Below are positions 11,605 through 29,119 of a stretch of 42,650 nucleotides of DNA, piece after piece. Under the pieces are notes generated by a model that saw only the letters and a list, made by a program, of their open reading frames with translations, had not been told where the DNA came from and did no database searches. Location of the stretch: the NCBI GenBank assembly GCA_009841165.1, contig VXMI01000121.1:1-42650 (forward strand), read 5' to 3'. Both the position numbers and the translations under genes were made by a program. This DNA is from Gemmatimonadota bacterium. GTDB lineage: Bacteria > Gemmatimonadota > Gemmatimonadetes > Longimicrobiales > Gaopeijiaceae. Position 1 is the first letter of the stretch, and each line of letters opens with the position of its first letter.

Positions 11605-13050
11605 ATGTCCGACTCCATCAGCTACGCCGCCGTTGTCAAGGACGAGTGCGAGACCTGCCACCTGGCGGCGCCCGTCCTCACCGAGATCCACCGGGCCGGC
11701 TATCCGCTCGCCGTGTACTGGCAGGACGATGGCGCGTTCCTGGACCCCGTCCTCGCCGCCGCCGCCGTCGACGACCGCGCGCTCGAGCACTCCTTCCACC
11801 TGGATGTGGAGACCGTCCCCACCCTGATCCGCCGCGAGAACGGTCTGGAAACCGGCCGCACGGCCGGCTGGAGCCGCGACGACTGGCGCGCGCTCACCGG
11901 CATCTCCGCGCTGGGGGCGGGACTGCCGCCCTACCGGCCCGGATGCGGCTCCCGCTCCGTCGAGCCGGGTATCGCGGAGACCTTGCAGGCGCGTTTCGGC
12001 GAAACCGGAATCCGCGCCCGCACCGTCGAGGTCGAGTCCGGCGCCGACGCGGTCGAGGCCTGCTACGACCGCGGCTGGACCGACGGCCTGCCCGTGGTAC
12101 CACCGACCCCCGAGCGCATCCTGCGCATGCTGGGCGGCACGCGCCGCGACCCGCGCGAGGTTATCGGCGAGATCCCTCCCGAACTCGCGCCCTGCACCGT
12201 CGAAAAGGTCGCCATCAACGCCGTCATGGCGGGTTGCCGGCCCGAGTACATGCCGGTCGTGCTGACGGCGCTCGAAGCCGCGCTGGACCCGGGATTCACC
12301 CTGCACGGCGTCACCTGCAGTACCTGCTTTTCGAGCCCGGTGATCATCGTCAACGGCCCCGTCGCAAAGCGCATCGGCATGAACTCCGGACTCAACGCGC
12401 TCGGACAGGGGAACCGGGCCAACGCCACCATCGGCCGCGCGGTCAATCTCGTTGTGCGCAATGTGGGGGGCGGGCGGCCCGGCGAAATCGACCGCGCGAC
12501 GTTGGGTTCTCCGGGCAAGTACACGTTCTGTTTTGCGGAGGATGAGCGCGACGAGGGCTGGGAACCGCTGGCCGTCTCACGCGGAATCGCACCCGGGCGG
12601 AGCGCTGTGACGGTGTTCGCCGGCGACGGAATCCAGGGCCTGACCGACCAGAAGGCGCGCACGCCACGCGAACTCTCCCGCTCCCTGGCGATGGGGCTGC
12701 GGGCGGTGGGGCACCCCAAGCTGTGTGAGTGGGCGCCTGCCGTTCTGGTCCTGTCGCCCGAGCACTATGCGATCTACCGCGAGGCGGGCTGGGACCGCTC
12801 CCGGATCACCGGCGCCCTCCACGACGCGCTGCTGCTCCCGGGCGAGAAGGTGGCTGCGGGCGTCGACGGCGTAGCCGAAGGAATGCCCCCCTCCCGCACG
12901 GGCCAGCTGATCCCCAAGTTCCACCCCGGTGCCCTGCTGCTGGTGCGCGCGGGCGGACCGGCCGGGCTGTTTTCGGCCATCCTCTCGGGCTGGCCGGGAG
13001 GGCGCCTGTTCGAGGAATCGCATCCTGTCACCAGAGAGATCGCCGAATGA
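11605..13050 (+). CDS. Thioredoxin-fold fusion protein, partner of the UGSC selenoprotein
   Basis: A 481-residue cytoplasmic protein without signal peptide. Residues 1 to about 115 look like a thioredoxin fold: a CETC redox motif (Cys15, Cys18) after a beta strand, and a VPT segment like the cis-proline loop of thioredoxins (VETVPTLIRR). From about residue 145 to the end is a large conserved domain I cannot assign to a biochemical function. It has CYDRGWTDGLPVVPPT, PCTVEKVAINAVMAGCRPEY, HGVTCSTC, IIVNGPVAKRIGMNSG, GNRANATIGRAVNLVVRNVGG and GSPGKYTFCFAE. Several cysteines (ProCysThr, GlyCysArg, CysSerThrCys) suggest redox or metal chemistry. The stop overlaps the ATG of the UGSC gene as ATGA, implying coupled translation. 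From memory, proteins with this domain occur next to UGSC genes elsewhere; that needs a search. A TTG at 11566 would add 13 residues. Confidence 0.7.
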   Translation: MSDSISYAAVVKDECETCHLAAPVLTEIHRAGYPLAVYWQDDGAFLDPVLAAAAVDDRALEHSFHLDVETVPTLIRRENGLETGRTAGWSRDDWRALTGISALGAGLPPYRPGCGSRSVEPGIAETLQARFGETGIRARTVEVESGADAVEACYDRGWTDGLPVVPPTPERILRMLGGTRRDPREVIGEIPPELAPCTVEKVAINAVMAGCRPEYMPVVLTALEAALDPGFTLHGVTCSTCFSSPVIIVNGPVAKRIGMNSGLNALGQGNRANATIGRAVNLVVRNVGGGRPGEIDRATLGSPGKYTFCFAEDERDEGWEPLAVSRGIAPGRSAVTVFAGDGIQGLTDQKARTPRELSRSLAMGLRAVGHPKLCEWAPAVLVLSPEHYAIYREAGWDRSRITGALHDALLLPGEKVAAGVDGVAEGMPPSRTGQLIPKFHPGALLLVRAGGPAGLFSAILSGWPGGRLFEESHPVTREIAE

Positions 13051-13574
13051 ACGACTCCACCCTCACCCTGCACGACCCCACCTCCGAGACCGCGCCCGCC
13101 AACCGCCCGCGCTGTGCACCGCCTGCGTCGCTGGACGGCAGGACGGTGGCGCTCTTCGACATCGGCAAGTCGCGCGCCGACGAATTCCTAGACCATCTCG
13201 AAGCGCGGCTCCGCGCCCGGGGAGTCGCCACCGCCCGCTTCGCGAAGCCGACCAATGCCAGGCCCGCCACCACCGCGATCCTGGACGACATCGCCGCGGG
13301 CGCCGACGTCGTCGTGGAGGCGCTCGCCGACTGAGGGTCGTGCGTATCGTGCGGTCTGCACGACATCAGGGCTCTCGACGACCGCGGCCTTCCCGGCCTC
13401 CTGGTCGCCACCAACGCGTTTCGTGACGCGGCCTCCTTCCAGATCCCTTCGCTCGGCTTCGAACCGGAGATCGTGTGGGTGCCGCACCCGGTCCAGAACC
13501 GCCGCCCTCACGAACTCGAGCAGCTGGCGGAGGACGCGCTCGCCGCGGTACTGCGCGGCCTGACCTCTAACTAA
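13047..13574 (+). CDS. UGSC-family selenoprotein (in-frame TGA decoded as selenocysteine)
   Basis: A 175-codon frame containing TGA at 13332-13334 as codon 96, ending at TAA 13572. Around the TGA the protein reads EALAD-U-GSCVSCGLHDIRALDDRG, the signature of the family known as UGSC (seleno)proteins (Sec-Gly-Ser-Cys). The part before the TGA (VALFDIGKSRADEFLDHLEARL... ADVVVEAL) and the part after it (GLPGLLVATNAF... QIPSLGF... WVPHP... ELEQLAEDAL) fit one continuous alpha/beta domain. A SECIS-like hairpin follows the TGA. A conventional annotation would stop at 13334 and lose the active-site half. The ATG overlaps the upstream thioredoxin-fusion stop. The gene converges on a lipoprotein gene only 3 bases away. 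The function is unknown; U96 with Cys99 would form a selenenylsulfide-type redox centre. The selA, selB, selC and selD genes must lie elsewhere. Confidence 0.88.
13335..13364 (+). promoter_or_regulatory. SECIS element immediately after the selenocysteine TGA
   Basis: The bases after TGA 13332-13334 can fold as TCGTGC (13347-13352), loop GGTCT (13353-13357), GCACGA (13358-13363). That is a perfect six-pair stem with a five-base apical loop starting with GG. The loop starts 18 bases after the TGA. Both the GGUCU loop and the 18-base distance are the same as in E. coli fdhF, whose SECIS binds SelB. A second copy of TCGTGC (13338-13343) gives a competing, longer-loop stem. The bulged U seen in fdhF is not obvious here. 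Confidence 0.8.
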
Positions 13575-14724: not shown

Positions 14725-17700
14725 TCATTCTCTACGAAGCAGGCGCTCCATCTCATACACCCGTCCCGCCTGGATGACGGTCCGGACCTCGCGCACGGCA
14801 CGGATGTCGGACAGCGGATCGCCGCCGATGACCACCAGGTCGGCCAGCGCCCCCGGCTCCACCACGCCCAGGACTCCCCCGTAGCCCAGCGCGTCAGCGG
14901 ACACGGAGGTGGTCGAACGAAGGACATCGACGGGGCTCATTCCGCCGTACCGCACCAGTGCCTCCATCTCCGCCTGCAGGCTCAGGCCCGGCGGGTTGAT
15001 GGGGGCGTCCGTGCCCACCACGACGCGCCCGCCCGCGGCCGCGACGCGCTGCGGCAGCGAGGCCATGTCCTCGACGAGCCGTCGGGCCACCGTCAGGTCG
15101 GCGGGCGCCCGGGCCGCAACCGGTGCCCAGGAAAAGAACGTCTCGACGCGGGGGTCGTCGAACAGCGACGGATCCTCCGTGGTCAGCAGGCCGTAAGCCC
15201 CATAGATCCCGATGGTCGGGGTGATCGTCATCCCCGACGCCGCCAGGAGATCCACCACGTCGCCGTAGCTGCGCGACAGCTCCGAAACCTTGGTCGAGTA
15301 GCCGCGCCGGCTCGTGCCGCGGACGTGTTCCACCCCGTCCGCGCCGAATGCGACCGCCGGGTACAATTCGTGCGAGGTCACCGGGAGCCCCAGCGCGTGC
15401 GCGTCCGCGACGACGCGCTTCTGCACCGGGTCGGAGAGGCGCACATAGGTCTTGACCAGATCGTAGCCCAAGTCGCGCGCCTGGGCCATCTCCAGCTCCA
15501 CCTGGGCCGACCCCCCAAGGGCGGGTGCGCCGGGATAGTAGATGCGGCTGCCGTCGATGGTGCCGCCGGTACCGAACCAGCGGGGCGCAATCCGCTTGCC
15601 GGACTCTCCCGCCTCGCGCGCCTCGGCGATCTCGTACGGGTCGCAGGCCGGACACCGGACCGAGGTCGCACCGTAGGCGAGCCAGATCCGGCCGGATTGC
15701 TCTCCCCCGGACAGGCCGCCATGCGCGTGCATCTCGATGAGCCCGGGTATCACGACTTCCCCGGTGGCATCGACCACGCGGTCGGCCGTGCGCGAGGGGT
15801 CCCGCGAAGCGATCTCCGCGATCCTTCCTCCCTCCAACACGATATCGACATCGCGGCGGAGGTCGTCGGCTCGTCCGTCCCACAGCGCCCCGGCGCGGAT
15901 CAGCACCGACCCGGGTGATTCCGCACGCCGCCAGTCGAGTTCCAGGGCGATCTCGTCGATCCGACCGTCCATGATGTCGACACGGCGGAGCCGGGCGCCG
16001 GAGAGGTGCACGACCGAGCGCGAGTCGCCCGTCCAGGTTGGATCGGCGGCGGCGTCATTGGTGAGCCGGCGGGCCACTGGTGCGGCCGGGTCGCCGTCGG
16101 CTTCGGTGGGGACGACCCAGAGCACGCCGTCGGACACATACGTCATCCAGCGGCCATCGGGCGAGCGAACCGGGCCGTCCGTGCCCCTGGTGCCCACGGA
16201 GAGCGCCGGGAGGTCCAGGAAGCGCTCGCCGACCTGCTGCTGCCACACCGCGCCCCAGCCCGACGCGGCCGGAAGCAGCGGAGCCGCGGGCAGGACGAGC
16301 GCGCGGTTGACTCCTTCGCGAAACCGCTCCGAGTAGCGCCAGTGGGCGGACACGACAATTGACCGGCCGTCCGGCGACCACGAGGGACGGCCGGCGCCGT
16401 TGAGTCCGGAGCGGACCACGCGCACCGAACCCGTGGCCAGATCCAGCACGTTGACACCGACCTGATAGCCCGAGCCCGTGAAGGCAATCCGCGTCCCGTC
16501 CGGAGACCACGAGGCCATGGTCACGCCTGCTCCTTCGGTCACGCGCTCGATACGACGGTCGTCGGCGTGCCGGATGTAGAGGTCCACGGTGCCGTCGCGG
16601 TCGGACGAGAAGGCGAGGCGGGAGCCGTCGGGGGACCACGCCGGATCGGTCTCGATCCAGCGGTCGTCGGTGATCCGTTCGGTTGCGCCGCCGATGGTGT
16701 GGATCCAGAGGTCGCCGAGTGCGGAAAACGCAATCTGGCGCCCGTCGGGGGAGACGGAGGGGGAGACGAGTCCACGTACCGGGAACGGTCCCGGCACCGT
16801 CAGATCGCGGGGACGGCGTGTGTACGGCTCCCGGTCGAGGGCGACGGTGGCCGTGAACGGAATGTCCCGCACCTGGCCGCCGTCCGGGGCGCGGTGGCGA
16901 ATGCGACCGTCCCCGGTGTAGAAGAAGCCCGCCGTCGTGGATGCGGCGCGGAACGGGAAGGCGTCCTCGTCCTCGCCGGTCAGCATCCTGCCTGTTCCGC
17001 CATCCACGCTGACCTCCAACAGCATCGAACGTCCTCCGTCGATGGCGTTGTAGATCAGGGTCTCGCCACCGGCGCTCCACGCGGGGGCGTTCACCTGCGC
17101 GCCATCGCCGTCGGCGACGCGGCGGCGCGGGGCGTCGACATCGTCCCCGTCCACCACCCAAATCCCCGCATCTTCGGTTTCGCCGTCCGCGGCGTACGCG
17201 ATCCCGCCGCCGGTGGGGGAGAAGGCGGGGCCGTATTCGCTGCCTTCGCCGTTCGTCACCCGCTCCACCGACCCGTCGGCGACCACGAGCGTCCAGACAT
17301 CGTAGCTGCCCCCCCGATCCGAACTGAAGGCGATCCGCTCGCCGCCCGGCGACCAGTGCGGTTCGCGATGGTCGAACGGTCCGCGGGTGTGCTGGCGCAG
17401 CCCGGAGCCGTCCGTGGCGACGCTCCATAGGTGGTAGTTGCCGTCCCAGTAGGCCTGGAAGGCGATCCGCGTGCCGTCGGGCGACCAGGTCGGCTGGCGG
17501 GCGTCGCCCAGCGGATCGGTCAGCGCGCGGGCCGTGCCGCCTTCGGCCGGGACCATCCAGATGCGGCCGAGGAGGTCGACGGCGAGCGTGCGGCCGTCGG
17601 GTGAGAGCGCAACGGCGATGTTCGTGCCTTCGGAGATTGTGACTTCGGTGCGCGGCGACTGGGCGCGGGCCTCCGCCGGCATGCAAAGGGCGAGCGCCAG

Positions 17701-17745
17701 CGCGCCGATGCACGCCGTGCCGCAGACTCCCACTTTCGGCGTCAC
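14725..17745 (-). CDS. Secreted amidohydrolase with N-terminal TolB-like beta-propeller
   Basis: A 1,006-residue exported protein (signal peptide ending near PAEARAQS). Residues about 30-640 are WD40/PD40 TolB-type propeller repeats, seen as repeated 'SPDG/WSPDGTRIAF' blades (DARQPTWSPDGTRIAF, HREPHWSPGGERIAF, ETDPAWSPDGSRLAF). Residues about 650-1000 are a metal-dependent amidohydrolase: GLIEMHAHGG (His-x-His), DLVKTYVRL (candidate carboxylated Lys), VTSHELYP and GVEHV (metal His), and GTDAP (catalytic Asp). It ends with the family-typical GALADLVVIGGDPL strand. Such fusions are abundant in Gemmatimonadota and are usually taken as peptide- or imide-bond hydrolases; the substrate is unknown. 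The GTG start at 17745 overlaps the stop of the upstream hydrolase gene (GTGA), so the two are probably co-translated. Confidence 0.88.
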   Translation of the reverse strand: MTPKVGVCGTACIGALALALCMPAEARAQSPRTEVTISEGTNIAVALSPDGRTLAVDLLGRIWMVPAEGGTARALTDPLGDARQPTWSPDGTRIAFQAYWDGNYHLWSVATDGSGLRQHTRGPFDHREPHWSPGGERIAFSSDRGGSYDVWTLVVADGSVERVTNGEGSEYGPAFSPTGGGIAYAADGETEDAGIWVVDGDDVDAPRRRVADGDGAQVNAPAWSAGGETLIYNAIDGGRSMLLEVSVDGGTGRMLTGEDEDAFPFRAASTTAGFFYTGDGRIRHRAPDGGQVRDIPFTATVALDREPYTRRPRDLTVPGPFPVRGLVSPSVSPDGRQIAFSALGDLWIHTIGGATERITDDRWIETDPAWSPDGSRLAFSSDRDGTVDLYIRHADDRRIERVTEGAGVTMASWSPDGTRIAFTGSGYQVGVNVLDLATGSVRVVRSGLNGAGRPSWSPDGRSIVVSAHWRYSERFREGVNRALVLPAAPLLPAASGWGAVWQQQVGERFLDLPALSVGTRGTDGPVRSPDGRWMTYVSDGVLWVVPTEADGDPAAPVARRLTNDAAADPTWTGDSRSVVHLSGARLRRVDIMDGRIDEIALELDWRRAESPGSVLIRAGALWDGRADDLRRDVDIVLEGGRIAEIASRDPSRTADRVVDATGEVVIPGLIEMHAHGGLSGGEQSGRIWLAYGATSVRCPACDPYEIAEAREAGESGKRIAPRWFGTGGTIDGSRIYYPGAPALGGSAQVELEMAQARDLGYDLVKTYVRLSDPVQKRVVADAHALGLPVTSHELYPAVAFGADGVEHVRGTSRRGYSTKVSELSRSYGDVVDLLAASGMTITPTIGIYGAYGLLTTEDPSLFDDPRVETFFSWAPVAARAPADLTVARRLVEDMASLPQRVAAAGGRVVVGTDAPINPPGLSLQAEMEALVRYGGMSPVDVLRSTTSVSADALGYGGVLGVVEPGALADLVVIGGDPLSDIRAVREVRTVIQAGRVYEMERLLRRE

Positions 17746-18473
17746 GCGCCCGCGCGCCCCCGGATCCACTCCACCAGCGCGTCCTGCGGCACGATCAGCA
17801 CGTGCCCCTGCCCCGCGACGATATCGAGGGTCACCCTGGCGCCCGCATCCTCGAGGCGCCGGGCGGTCGCCTCCGACCCGCTCACCCAGGCGCCGTCGTC
17901 CTCGCCGACCATCAGCCACACCGGCACGTCGGCCAGCGACGCGAGCGAGTCGTCGCCCGCATAGCGCCCCGGCATGGCGATGATCCCACCCACGCGGTCC
18001 GGCATCGTCAGCGCCGCGTGAAAGACCCCGATGCCACCCGCCGACGCACCCGTCAGCACTATGTCGCGCGCGGCACCCGCGAGATTGGCGTCGATCCAGT
18101 CCAGCACCGCGGACGTTACGTACTGGCCGCCGTCCGACATGCCGGGGCCGTACACCTCCACCCCGATGATCGCGTACCCGGCGGCCGGCGCCGCCTCGTC
18201 CCAGTACGAATCCAGGAGCCCGAGCAGCAGGTCCGAGTCGCCCCTGCCCCACGGGAACGCCACCACCACCCCTCTGGCCGCCACCGACGGGCGAATGACC
18301 GCGATGTTGACCGGCTCCTCGAGTGCGGTCGTGAGCGTCACCCACTCCAGCGTCACGGGCGCCGCCGGCTCGGTGGGACCGTCGGAGCCGCAGGCAAGCA
18401 GCAACGCCGGGAACGACGCCAGCGCCACGGCGCTCCGCAGCCGTCCCGCTTCAACCACGCGTCCGGCCATCAT
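17742..18473 (-). CDS. Lipoprotein alpha/beta hydrolase (esterase-like)
   Basis: A 243-residue lipoprotein (lipobox LLAC, Cys28) with an alpha/beta-hydrolase fold. The nucleophile elbow is TGASAGG (Ser144), a likely acid is in GEDDGAW (Asp192/193), and the histidine is in GQGHVL (His224). It resembles polyhydroxybutyrate depolymerase-, phospholipase- and carboxylesterase-like proteins; no substrate can be named. It begins 3 bases after the choice-of-anchor B stop and overlaps the amidohydrolase start, so the three genes look like one transcription unit acting in the envelope. ATG 18470 is an alternative start. Confidence 0.8.
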   Translation of the reverse strand: MMAGRVVEAGRLRSAVALASFPALLLACGSDGPTEPAAPVTLEWVTLTTALEEPVNIAVIRPSVAARGVVVAFPWGRGDSDLLLGLLDSYWDEAAPAAGYAIIGVEVYGPGMSDGGQYVTSAVLDWIDANLAGAARDIVLTGASAGGIGVFHAALTMPDRVGGIIAMPGRYAGDDSLASLADVPVWLMVGEDDGAWVSGSEATARRLEDAGARVTLDIVAGQGHVLIVPQDALVEWIRGRAGA

Positions 18474-25706: not shown

Positions 25707-27710
25707 CTAGCAGGTCAGGCAGCGGTGGCTGTTCGACGAACCCAGCTTCTCCAGCAGCGCCACGGTGGCCGGCCGCGGTGAGACCCGCTGCACCGGGCCG
25801 TTGGCCAGATCCGCCACGGTCTGTCCGCGGCGGCTGACCGCACGGATATCGGCGCCCTGCTCCACCAGGTAGATGATGAGCGCGTGGTCGCCGCGCGCGC
25901 CGGCGTGGTGCAGCGCGTTGTAGCCGTTGTGGTCGCGGGCGTTGATGTCGACGCCGAGCTCCTCCACCAGGAAGCGCACCGCCGGAAGCCAGCCGTCGGG
26001 CACGTGTCGATGCGCGTTGCCGGCGAAGCCTTCGCCGTAGCCGACACCCGAAGCAGCGTGGATGGGCCATACCCCGGGGCCTCCCGCCGGGACGGGCGGC
26101 AGTCCGGAAGCGTCGGGCGCGAGCGCGCGCAGCGAGTCGGCAACTTCCGAGGCCCGGATCAGATTCTGCCGGACTTCGTCGTCCAGGCCGGCGAGGACGT
26201 CGTCGGGGAAATCGCCCTGCTCTTCTTCCGGCAGGTCGTTGCGGACGGACTTGAGTAGGGTGACACGGGCGGAGTCGGCCAGTTCGGCGTAGGTGGAGTC
26301 CGAGGCCAACTGTGTCCGGTTCTGCTGCCTGAGGAACTCGTCGGTCGAGAGGCGGCGGCGGCGCGGCGGTGCCACGGTCGGGATGCCGGGGTCGGCCCCG
26401 TGCCGGACAAGCAGTTGCATCGCGGCGACGTCTGTCGCGTAGGCCGCGCGCCAGAAGGCGGTCGCGCCGTCGGTGTCTACGAGGCCGCAATTGCGGTTGC
26501 CGCACCCGCTGTATTCCATGTACCAGGGGTGAAGCGTGAGGCGTGCGTCCGGGTCGGCACCGGCCTCGAGCAGCGCCTCCATGACGTCGAGGTAGGTCGC
26601 CGTCTGCAGCCCCAGCTCCTGGGGCTGCGGGTAGCGGGTGCGGGGTTGCCAGCGGGCGTTGACCGCCCCCCAGAGCGGTGTCGCGCCGTTCAAAGCCGAG
26701 GCGATGTCGGGATCGGCGCCCCGCTCGATCAGGGTGAGCGCCAGGTCGAACTGGCCGTTGATCGTGGCCATCAGGAGGGGACTGGTGCCGTCGCTCGCCG
26801 ACACCCCATCGATGTCGGCGCCCCCGTCCAGGAGCGCGACCGCGGACTCGGCGTGTCCCTGGCGCACTGCGTGCAGCAGCGCAGTCAGGCCGCCCTTGGC
26901 CTGGACGCGTCTCGGTCTGAAGTCGTCTTCCTCTTCTTCTTCGGCGTCCTCGGGAAGTCCTTCCTCGTACACCTCGCGCGACGCTCGCACAGCCGTCTGG
27001 AACTCGGTGGGGGTCGGGGCCCGCGACCGGCCGGCCGTGAGCGCCTCGACCGCTTCGGTGCGGCGCCGGCCCGCGATCCGGTCGAGCTCCGAGAGCACCT
27101 GCAGGTCCTCCACCCTGCTGGTGATGTCGGGATCGGCGCCCGCGTCGAGGAGCGCGCGGACGGCGTCGGCGCGGTTCATCGAGGCCGCGAACATGAGCGG
27201 GGTCTGGCCCCACCCGTCCTCGCGCGCGTTGGGGTCGGCGCCGCGCTCCAGCAGCGCAGTGACGAGGGGCGCCGAGCCCGCGCTTGCGGCCAGGTGCAGC
27301 GGCGTGGTGCCGGTGCCGGGAGCGCGGGCCGTCGCGTCGGCACCCGCGTCGACGAGCATGAGTGCAACGGCGTCGCTTCCGGTGCGTGCCGCGATGTGCA
27401 GCGGCGTGTAGCCGCCGATCCGCGTAACGGGCTCGATCACCGCCCCCGCGTATAGCAGCATCTCGGCGAGGGCGGCGTCGCCGCGTTCGGCGGCCCAGTG
27501 CAGCGCGGTCATGCCGTCACCCTGCGCCGCGTTGACATCGGCGCCGCTGGCAAGGAGTGCGCGCACCGTGGCGATGTCGCCCTGCATCGCCGCGTCGGCG
27601 ACGGGGGAGTCCGCAAACCGCGGGGTGGCCGCGGTGAGGGCGCCGATCAGCGCCGCGGCACCGACGAGGCCAGCGGTCAGACGTGTTTGCCGAGCCGCCA
27701 TGGCGGTCAT
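25707..27710 (-). CDS. Secreted ankyrin-repeat protein
   Basis: A 667-residue protein with an N-terminal signal or membrane anchor (LTAGLVGAAALIGALTAATP). It has two sets of ankyrin repeats: residues about 35-200 (DGMTALHWAAERGDAALAEMLLYAG, GGYTPLHIAARTG, TTPLHLAASAG, QTPLMFAASMN) and about 250-640 (GLTALLHAVRQGHAESAVALLDGGADI through GYNALHHAGARGDHALIIYLVEQGADI). They are interrupted by an acidic stretch (EDAEEEEEDDF) and a longer non-repeat insert. It ends in HRCLTC. The start ATG 27710 overlaps the DUF1552 stop (ATGA); ATG 27701 is an alternative. The repeats suggest protein-protein binding, and the tight coupling suggests a scaffold or partner for the DUF1592/DUF1552 proteins. That role is inference. 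Confidence 0.85.
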   Translation of the reverse strand: MTAMAARQTRLTAGLVGAAALIGALTAATPRFADSPVADAAMQGDIATVRALLASGADVNAAQGDGMTALHWAAERGDAALAEMLLYAGAVIEPVTRIGGYTPLHIAARTGSDAVALMLVDAGADATARAPGTGTTPLHLAASAGSAPLVTALLERGADPNAREDGWGQTPLMFAASMNRADAVRALLDAGADPDITSRVEDLQVLSELDRIAGRRRTEAVEALTAGRSRAPTPTEFQTAVRASREVYEEGLPEDAEEEEEDDFRPRRVQAKGGLTALLHAVRQGHAESAVALLDGGADIDGVSASDGTSPLLMATINGQFDLALTLIERGADPDIASALNGATPLWGAVNARWQPRTRYPQPQELGLQTATYLDVMEALLEAGADPDARLTLHPWYMEYSGCGNRNCGLVDTDGATAFWRAAYATDVAAMQLLVRHGADPGIPTVAPPRRRRLSTDEFLRQQNRTQLASDSTYAELADSARVTLLKSVRNDLPEEEQGDFPDDVLAGLDDEVRQNLIRASEVADSLRALAPDASGLPPVPAGGPGVWPIHAASGVGYGEGFAGNAHRHVPDGWLPAVRFLVEELGVDINARDHNGYNALHHAGARGDHALIIYLVEQGADIRAVSRRGQTVADLANGPVQRVSPRPATVALLEKLGSSNSHRCLTC

Positions 27711-29119
27711 CCCTGCGTCGCCGTGGAAGATCCCGAGACGAGGGAGAATTCGCCCGTGCTGTCGCCGAAGCTCTCCATCTCCATCCCCATTCCGTTGAGA
27801 GCCCACAGCATGGCGTTGGCCATGGGCGTGGCATCGGGCGCCTCGAGGTGCAGGTTCCCCTCCAGCAGGCCGTTGGCGCCGCCCAGGAGGATCAGCGGAC
27901 AGCGGCGGTGGTTGTGCAGGTTGGCGTCGGCCATCGGCGAGCCCCACATGACCATGGTCCTGTCGAGGAGGCTGGCATCGCCCTCCATGCTGTTCTGGAG
28001 CTTCTCGAGGAAGTAGGGCAGCTGTCCGACGCGGAACTGGCAGATCCTGTTGAACTCGAGGATCGCCTCCTCGCGCCCGCCGTGGTGCGAGGCGGGGTGG
28101 AAGGGACGATTCGAGCCGCTCTCGGGGAAGACGCGGTTGTCGGCGTCGCGGCCCGTCTTGAAGGAGATGATCCGCGTCATGTTGGTCTCGAGCGCCAGAA
28201 CCTGCAGGTCGAACATGAGGCGCATGTGCTCGGTGAACGAGTCCGGCACGCCGGCGGGCGCTTCCGGCAGTTCGCGCTCCTCACCGCTGGTGTTGCGCGA
28301 CTCGATCGCGGCGATCCGGCGCTCGATCTCGCGCACGTTGTCGAGGTAGCGGTCCATGCGGAGCCGGTCGGTCGCTCCCAGTTCGCGCTTGAGAGCGGAG
28401 ATCTCGCCGGCCATCCAGTCGAGGATGCTCTTGCGCGACGCCCGCCGCGCGGCCCGCTCCTCGGGCGTGCCCCCCGCTCCGAAGAGCATGTCGAAGGCGA
28501 CGCGCGGGTCGCGGATCATGGGCAGCGGCTCGTTGGGAGACGCCCAGCTGATCGTGTCGGTGTAGGCGCAGGAGTAGTTGTAGGTGCAGCCGCCGGCATG
28601 GTCGAGGTTCTCGATGCAGAACTGCATGGAGGGGAGCGGCGTGTCCTGGCCGAAGCGTTGTGCGTACATCTGGTCGAGCGAAGTGCCTACCCAGATGTCC
28701 GAGCCCTGGGTCTGCCTGGGGTGGGACTGGGTGAGGAAGACCGCACTGGAGCGGAAGTGGTCGCCGCCGATCTCGGGCGTCGAGAAGGCTTCCGCCATGC
28801 GGCAGTCGGTGTTGCTGACGATGGTGAGCTGGTCCTGGAAGGGCTTGAGCGAGGTGAGCGCGCTCTCGGGCAGGATCTCGAAGTCCTTGCCGGTGGTGGA
28901 CGGCGCGTAGAGGTGCTGGGTCGCGCCCCACTCGTTGCAGCCCGCCAGACCGTGGACTTCCTCGATGCACACGAGGCGGGTCGGGCCCTCATCGGCGCGC
29001 GTGTGGGCGCGCAGGCGCCCGGCGGGGATCATGGCGTCGAGCAGCGGTAGCGCGGCGGTGGCGCCGAGGCCTCTCAGGAAGGTGCGGCGCGGGATGTGGG
29101 TGCCGGTGATGAAGTGCAT
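27707..29119 (-). CDS. DUF1552 family protein with Tat signal
   Basis: A 470-residue protein starting with a twin-arginine signal (IPRRTFLRGLGATAALPLLDAM), so probably folded, perhaps with cofactor, before export. The body matches DUF1552, a group found next to DUF1592 proteins in Planctomycetota, Acidobacteriota and Gemmatimonadota: SSAVFLTQSHPRQ, WVGTSLDQMYAQ, CTYNYSCAYTDTISW, DPRVAFDMLFG, RKSILDWMAGEI, FKTGRDADNRVFPE, PFHPASHHGG and MVMWGSPMADANLHNH. Function is unknown. Its AAGGAG Shine-Dalgarno (forward 29131-29136) overlaps the DUF1592 stop, and its own stop overlaps the ankyrin start, so the three genes form a tightly coupled unit. Confidence 0.88.
   Translation of the reverse strand: MHFITGTHIPRRTFLRGLGATAALPLLDAMIPAGRLRAHTRADEGPTRLVCIEEVHGLAGCNEWGATQHLYAPSTTGKDFEILPESALTSLKPFQDQLTIVSNTDCRMAEAFSTPEIGGDHFRSSAVFLTQSHPRQTQGSDIWVGTSLDQMYAQRFGQDTPLPSMQFCIENLDHAGGCTYNYSCAYTDTISWASPNEPLPMIRDPRVAFDMLFGAGGTPEERAARRASRKSILDWMAGEISALKRELGATDRLRMDRYLDNVREIERRIAAIESRNTSGEERELPEAPAGVPDSFTEHMRLMFDLQVLALETNMTRIISFKTGRDADNRVFPESGSNRPFHPASHHGGREEAILEFNRICQFRVGQLPYFLEKLQNSMEGDASLLDRTMVMWGSPMADANLHNHRRCPLILLGGANGLLEGNLHLEAPDATPMANAMLWALNGMGMEMESFGDSTGEFSLVSGSSTATQG

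Follow-up and report, generated by a model that had tools for sequence, protein, structure and literature searches.

A UGSC-family selenoprotein of Gemmatimonadota and its near-obligate partner: a candidate thioredoxin-fed reductase related to GrdB and PrdB

The stretch of Gemmatimonadota DNA analyzed here (the whole 42,650 nucleotides of contig VXMI01000121.1 in assembly GCA_009841165.1, hereafter the window) contains a reading frame with an internal TGA at the first position of a would-be UGSC motif, which raises two questions: whether this TGA is a selenocysteine (Sec) codon and, if so, what kind of reaction the resulting protein might carry out. The UGSC family has been on record since about 2008 and ranks among the commonest selenoproteins of the Global Ocean Sampling data, where it accounts for 255 sequences (PMC2398784); in a 2026 review it is still listed with the families whose functions are largely uncharacterized (PMC13188914). 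The features on which our answer rests are collected in Table 1.

Table 1. Positions in the window of the UGSC gene, its recoding elements, and its upstream partner
Feature	Positions	Strand	Details	Basis
Partner gene P2	11605..13050	+	481 aa; N-terminal thioredoxin-fold domain and C-terminal P2C; stop overlaps the UGSC start (ATGA, 13047-13050)	
Thioredoxin-fold domain of P2	11605..11904	+	residues 1-100; CETC at 11647-11658; Val-Pro at residues 71-72	structure, sequence search, diverged homologue
P2C domain of P2	12037..13047	+	residues ∼145-481; signature LPVVPPT (residues 162-168)	alignment A2
UGSC family selenoprotein gene	13047..13574	+	ATG 13047, 95 codons, TGA 13332-13334, 79 codons, TAA 13572-13574; 175 aa with TGA as Sec (Sec96)	Pfam PF24696 match
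TGA read as Sec96, first residue of the UGSC motif	13332..13334	+		sequence, conservation, model
SECIS apical hairpin	13347..13363	+	6-bp stem; 5-nt loop GGUCU (13353-13357); 18 nt between UGA and loop; wider fold spans 13332-13377	

The original prediction, made from the letters alone, had joined the codons on the two sides of the TGA into one frame and placed the product in the UGSC family. The coordinates and the 175-residue length were confirmed, and the full product matched the Pfam UGSC profile (PF24696) at an E value of 1.8e-34, with 119.8 bits against a gathering score of 25; because the match covers residues 8 to 173 (profile positions 2 to 171 of 172), it takes in both sides of the TGA. 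The family assignment holds by the Pfam cut-off but falls short of the stricter NCBI equivalog model (NF041046, positions 1 to 146 of 147), where 112.8 bits were scored against a cut-off of 125, and this shortfall indicates a diverged branch of the family. The gene, present in one copy in the source genome, is a new member of an already known family: it shares with PF24696/NF041046 the full-length profile match, the UGSC motif, and the Sec form with a selenocysteine insertion element (SECIS), and it differs in belonging to a diverged Gemmatimonadota branch whose partner, P2, carries a thioredoxin domain of its own. Named relatives come from Gemmatimonadetes MAGs (identity up to 97%), from records labelled Gammaproteobacteria, and from two Alphaproteobacteria (∼51%); no UGSC relative turned up in viral contigs. 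Elsewhere in the window lie genes for a large ankyrin-repeat protein (25707-27947) and a WD40-like/amidohydrolase protein (14725-18345), neither of which bears on the finding described here.

We surveyed 395 Gemmatimonadota genomes for UGSC and found it in 49 (48 over the cut-off), with 51 matches in all. Every one of the 51 contains exactly one in-frame TGA, which argues that the readthrough frame is not due to chance, and in all 48 loci examined the frame runs on past the TGA with the same conserved residues. An alignment of 24 sequences (A1) has 22 invariant columns, 16 of them after position 96, and U96, G97, S98, and C99 are all among the invariant positions. Across 18 comparisons against the window gene, dN/dS values ranged from 0.05 to 0.46 before the TGA and from 0.08 to 0.37 after it; synonymous change predominates in both parts, and by this measure the gene is under purifying selection on both sides of the codon. 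Homologues that end at the TGA and lack a conserved downstream part had been named in the original prediction as grounds for giving up the selenoprotein reading; we looked for them among the 51 phylum matches and the 48 loci examined and found none. The prediction that gene callers truncate such genes is borne out by the homologues of Paracoccus ferrooxidans and Acidovorax T1, whose database entries are fragments broken at the TGA, and since some deposited annotations cut UGSC at this codon, the gene pair described below is under-reported. Two tryptic peptides of the window protein, GLPGLLVATNAFR and DAASFQIPSLGFEPEIVWVPHPVQNR, are encoded after the UGA.

Immediately downstream of the codon, the transcript can form a hairpin that satisfies the published bacterial SECIS rules (PMC13188914), and the mRNA folded from just before the UGA reaches −23 kcal/mol (z = −2.0). 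Among 23 distinct sequences, the six named stem pairs form in 96.4% of cells and two pairs change on both sides. The observed covariation score was reached in 0 of 500 shuffles, a control that relatedness among the sequences can inflate, and structures slid along the alignment scored far lower. In the pair with the main covariation signal, the third base of a Ser codon faces that of a His codon (window frame); both substitutions are therefore silent there, and selection on the protein does not account for them. The stem is also kept in Acidovorax and Paracoccus, with the loop-adjacent pair flipped from C-G to G-C.

The genome also carries the Sec machinery that the original prediction had proposed looking for, with all components above curated cut-offs: SelB (298.8 bits, cut-off 242), SelD (380 bits, cut-off 125), tRNA-Sec (78, cut-off 47), and SelA, which is split into two halves on two contig ends (larger half 330 bits, cut-off 267.9). 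The SelD match (L017, G000:C206:14717-15640) has one in-frame TGA itself, which suggests that the selenophosphate synthetase of this genome is probably a selenoprotein too. Across the phylum, SelB was found at E < 1e-50 in 47 of the 48 UGSC genomes, and in Paracoccus selA and selB lie within 8 kb of the UGSC gene. Genome G275 is an anomaly: its two UGSC copies, both with the TGA, lie on short contigs, yet it gave no match for SelA and none above the cut-off for SelB, which may reflect a binning error. Taken by itself, the coding of selenocysteine by this TGA is practically certain, and the earlier claim of a selenoprotein and not a decaying pseudogene stands. A true stop followed by decaying or chance coding sequence has nothing to recommend it beyond the in-frame TGA itself, and the retention of that TGA in all matches, the low downstream dN/dS, the SECIS covariation at synonymous sites, and the complete Sec machinery leave it next to no probability.

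The original prediction overlooked the partner gene P2 directly upstream and a relation of UGSC to glycine and proline reductases. The first 100 residues of P2 align with a thioredoxin structure (Z = 10.3, rmsd 2.2 over 88 residues), thioredoxin chains rank first in a PDB sequence search with P2, and diverged P2 homologues have an AhpC-TSA/Redoxin domain in the same place (E = 1.4e-18 in L109). For the conserved remainder we use the working name P2C, as the domain is absent from Pfam and NCBIfam and neither the window P2 nor its P2C part matched any family in these two collections. The structure model of P2 has a mean pLDDT of 78 with low-confidence parts, which limit fold searches; matches of P2C to cyanuric acid hydrolase/barbiturase and to fumarase were weak (TM 0.14 to 0.23), and we did not adopt either fold. 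We likewise rejected Cys309 of P2C as a universally essential catalytic residue, since it is invariant in alignment A2 but replaced by Ala or Thr in Variovorax boronicumulans and Neorhizobium.

Within the 395 Gemmatimonadota genomes, UGSC was counted in 48, P2C in 48, and both in 47 (Fisher p = 9e-59, a value that overstates independence because the genomes are related), and in the two unpaired genomes (G239 and G098) the missing partner falls beyond a contig end. These co-occurrence data support a near-obligate pairing of UGSC with P2C. The pairing reaches well past this phylum: P2C is present in 10 of 10 plasmid records with UGSC, lies directly adjacent to it in Alphaproteobacteria as well, and is linked to or fused with it in Gemmatimonadota, Alpha- and Betaproteobacteria, Actinomycetota, and haloarchaea. 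The two form a single protein in Acidovorax, V. boronicumulans, and Neorhizobium, and in the haloarchaeon Halorientalis two P2C genes flank UGSC. Thioredoxin system genes recur at these loci, as an Arthrobacter operon with the order trxB-trxA-P2C-UGSC, as P2C-UGSC-trxB in Roseovarius, and as a trxB near P2C-UGSC in Variovorax SRS16. UGSC-P2C loci thus resemble the TrxB/TrxA system in having adjacent trxB and/or trxA genes or a fused thioredoxin domain, and they differ from it in that thioredoxin here is tied to one particular gene pair. The TGA form is kept in Acidovorax and Paracoccus, a Cys form (CGSC) occurs in haloarchaea, Arthrobacter, Embleya, Roseovarius, and Variovorax, and the Neorhizobium fusion has a CSTC variant of the motif. 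These sequence comparisons show or strongly support not only the Sec coding but also the pairing with P2C, the fusions, and the supply of thioredoxin. A fusion of UGSC to a conserved unknown domain, Unknown_1, is part of the published Global Ocean Sampling description (PMC2398784), and P2C may be that domain.

In the wider survey, UGSC-P2C lies near genes for TTT and TRAP transporters, CoA transferases, isocitrate lyase/PEP mutase family proteins, and a ComA homologue, neighbors that are typical of carboxylate catabolism. Such near-constant adjacency or fusion to P2C, often with a thioredoxin supply, suggests the kind of reaction involved. The genes that border the pair in the window, a DUF5916 gene upstream and a holin-like gene downstream, were not seen again on inspection by eye of loci from the other genera. 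One Gemmatimonadota locus (L108, G235:C100) brings together UGSC, two P2C copies, a thiolase, an AMP-binding CoA ligase, and TctC; its P2C lacks the thioredoxin domain, and its catabolic-looking cluster is unlike the other loci of the phylum.

A mechanistic relative emerged from profile comparisons. A Pfam search of the UGSC product (HMMER, E up to 10) gave no GRDB match and only 3HCDH_N at 0.06, and GRDB (PF07355) matched neither this product nor anything in the source genome, so that profile-profile comparison was needed. With hhalign, UGSC and the GRDB set aligned with their Sec sites together at E = 2.6e-6, or 9.8e-8 with wider UGSC sampling; these E values refer to single comparisons, not to a search of a database, and the U/C motif contributes much of the score. 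Masking of the U/C columns left a value of 7.6e-5, and the best of 100 column shuffles gave 0.012. Against a PrdB-like Gemmatimonadota set alone, E was 0.041 with the first alignment and 2e-4 with wider sampling. NCBIfam scans of Cys-form UGSC proteins returned D-proline reductase PrdB and GrdB at E = 0.02 to 0.13, and in the reverse direction GrdB found UGSC weakly (0.29 in NCBIfam, 0.086 in Pfam); each of these hmmscan matches is marginal (E = 0.02 to 0.3), and taken together they share one register. We searched the PDB with a GrdB sequence for a GrdB/PrdB structure and found none.

These alignments support a relation between UGSC and the Sec-bearing C-terminal part of GrdB/PrdB. In both, Sec follows a predicted beta strand within a UxxC (often UxxCxxC) motif, and the UGSC profile alignment stays in register through the C-terminal part; glycine reductase likewise has a thioredoxin-linked electron supply (PMC13188914). 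Unlike GrdB, UGSC is a single domain of ∼150 aa that lacks the N-terminal half and a PF07355 match. A pyruvoyl-bearing partner (GrdE/PrdA) belongs to the glycine and proline reductase systems; the partner of UGSC is P2C, which belongs to no Pfam or NCBIfam family. PrdB/GrdB-like matches also occur in about 25 genomes of the phylum (L070-L097), where they break off right before an in-frame TGA that is part of a U[PT]xC motif; readthrough of this TGA gives longer conserved proteins that gene callers would truncate. Genome G145 (L069) encodes a full GrdB-type protein with the motif UGSCNRC.

The literature lists UGSC among selenoproteins with a thioredoxin fold. In our structure model (pLDDT 92.3, pTM 0.86), strand and helix alternate five times and Sec96 sits after strand 88-94, at the start of helix 97-112; the closest PDB matches have flavodoxin, TIR, and CheY-like folds, and no thioredoxin is among the 50 matches listed. 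The model predicts a flavodoxin-like fold, at odds with the published thioredoxin-like assignment. A UGSC alignment searched against PDB sequences matched NAD-binding domains of 3-hydroxyacyl-CoA dehydrogenase (0.0086) and FtsY, which we took as generic Rossmann-type similarity. The model bears on the proposal that UGSC is a general thioredoxin-type thiol-disulfide oxidoreductase whose UxxC reduces or isomerizes protein disulfides, a role that would fit the motif, the published fold assignment, and the association with thioredoxin and trxB. We consider this unlikely, given a confident model whose best matches lie with other folds, a separate thioredoxin supply that would make a second one redundant, and a near-obligate P2C pairing and catabolic neighborhoods that point to a specific substrate.

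Our preferred reading, held with somewhat more confidence than doubt, is that UGSC, read through the UGA via the SECIS, forms with P2 a two-gene, thioredoxin-fed reductase that is related to GrdB/PrdB and cleaves a substituent from a small carboxylate. UGSC would be translated through the UGA by the genome's own Sec machinery, helped by the SECIS just after the codon, and would make up, with the overlapping upstream P2, the two halves of one enzyme. UGSC would first of all provide a small domain of flavodoxin-like fold, akin to the end of GrdB/PrdB that bears Sec; P2C would then bind, and possibly activate, a small carboxylate substrate. In a third step, the Sec96 selenolate would attack this substrate, with reductive cleavage of a C-N, C-O, C-S, or C-halogen bond, after which Cys99 would close a putative Sec96-Cys99 bridge. 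Finally, the CETC-bearing thioredoxin domain of P2 would reduce the bridge, a task for separate TrxA/TrxB in other lineages. The scheme is drawn by analogy with the D-proline and glycine reductases, in which a selenocysteine of GrdB/PrdB participates when an amino acid is reductively cleaved at its alpha carbon (PMC13188914); which bond is broken, in which substrate, and what exactly P2C contributes are our inferences.

The main warning that P2C may also act outside redox chemistry comes from fusion proteins that keep P2C and have another sequence in place of the redox motif. In Vibrio europaeus (L131) and Sporomusa termitida (L129), UGSC-P2C fusions have MGTS in place of UGSC and lie beside aconitase X and DUF126 genes; retention of P2C without the motif implies that P2C may do something non-redox, and these fusions are possibly a non-redox offshoot. 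Together with the CSTC variant of Neorhizobium and the weak P2C fold matches to cyclic amide hydrolases and fumarase, they would suit a non-reductive hydrolase, lyase, or hydratase centered on P2C, in which thioredoxin keeps a Sec/Cys nucleophile or metal ligand reduced. However, nearly all members keep Sec, or else Cys (haloarchaea, Actinomycetota, and others), and the link to trxB is found repeatedly, so that a non-reductive enzyme appears improbable.

On a wider view, UGSC, P2C, and thioredoxin may constitute a distinct and widespread class of Sec/Cys-dependent reductases in bacteria (Gemmatimonadota, Proteobacteria, and Actinomycetota) and haloarchaea, related to GrdB/PrdB and free of the known glycine/proline reductase subunits, that opens a carbon-heteroatom bond in a carboxylate imported by TTT or TRAP systems. 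We put this forward tentatively, as a proposal with real but less than even chances. No such working hypothesis for the UGSC family was found in the literature searched. The analysis supplies the family with a near-obligate partner, with a likely source of electrons, and with a relative in mechanism, and what was an "unknown redox protein" becomes the subject of a concrete and testable hypothesis, a two-component reductase, for an abundant selenoprotein.

Two further observations concern P2. P2 is, in some genomes, spread over two or three frames or pieces next to an intact UGSC (L065 and L041 in G058, L061 and L037 in G192, and G162), which may be due to sequencing error, contig breaks, or decay. 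In some genomes, a piece of P2C of ∼31 residues (the GWTDGLPVVPPT region) is repeated ∼1 kb upstream of an intact P2 (L055:2542-2634, G161:C41:231368-231463, and G098:C52:1597-1692), perhaps as the remnant of a duplication.
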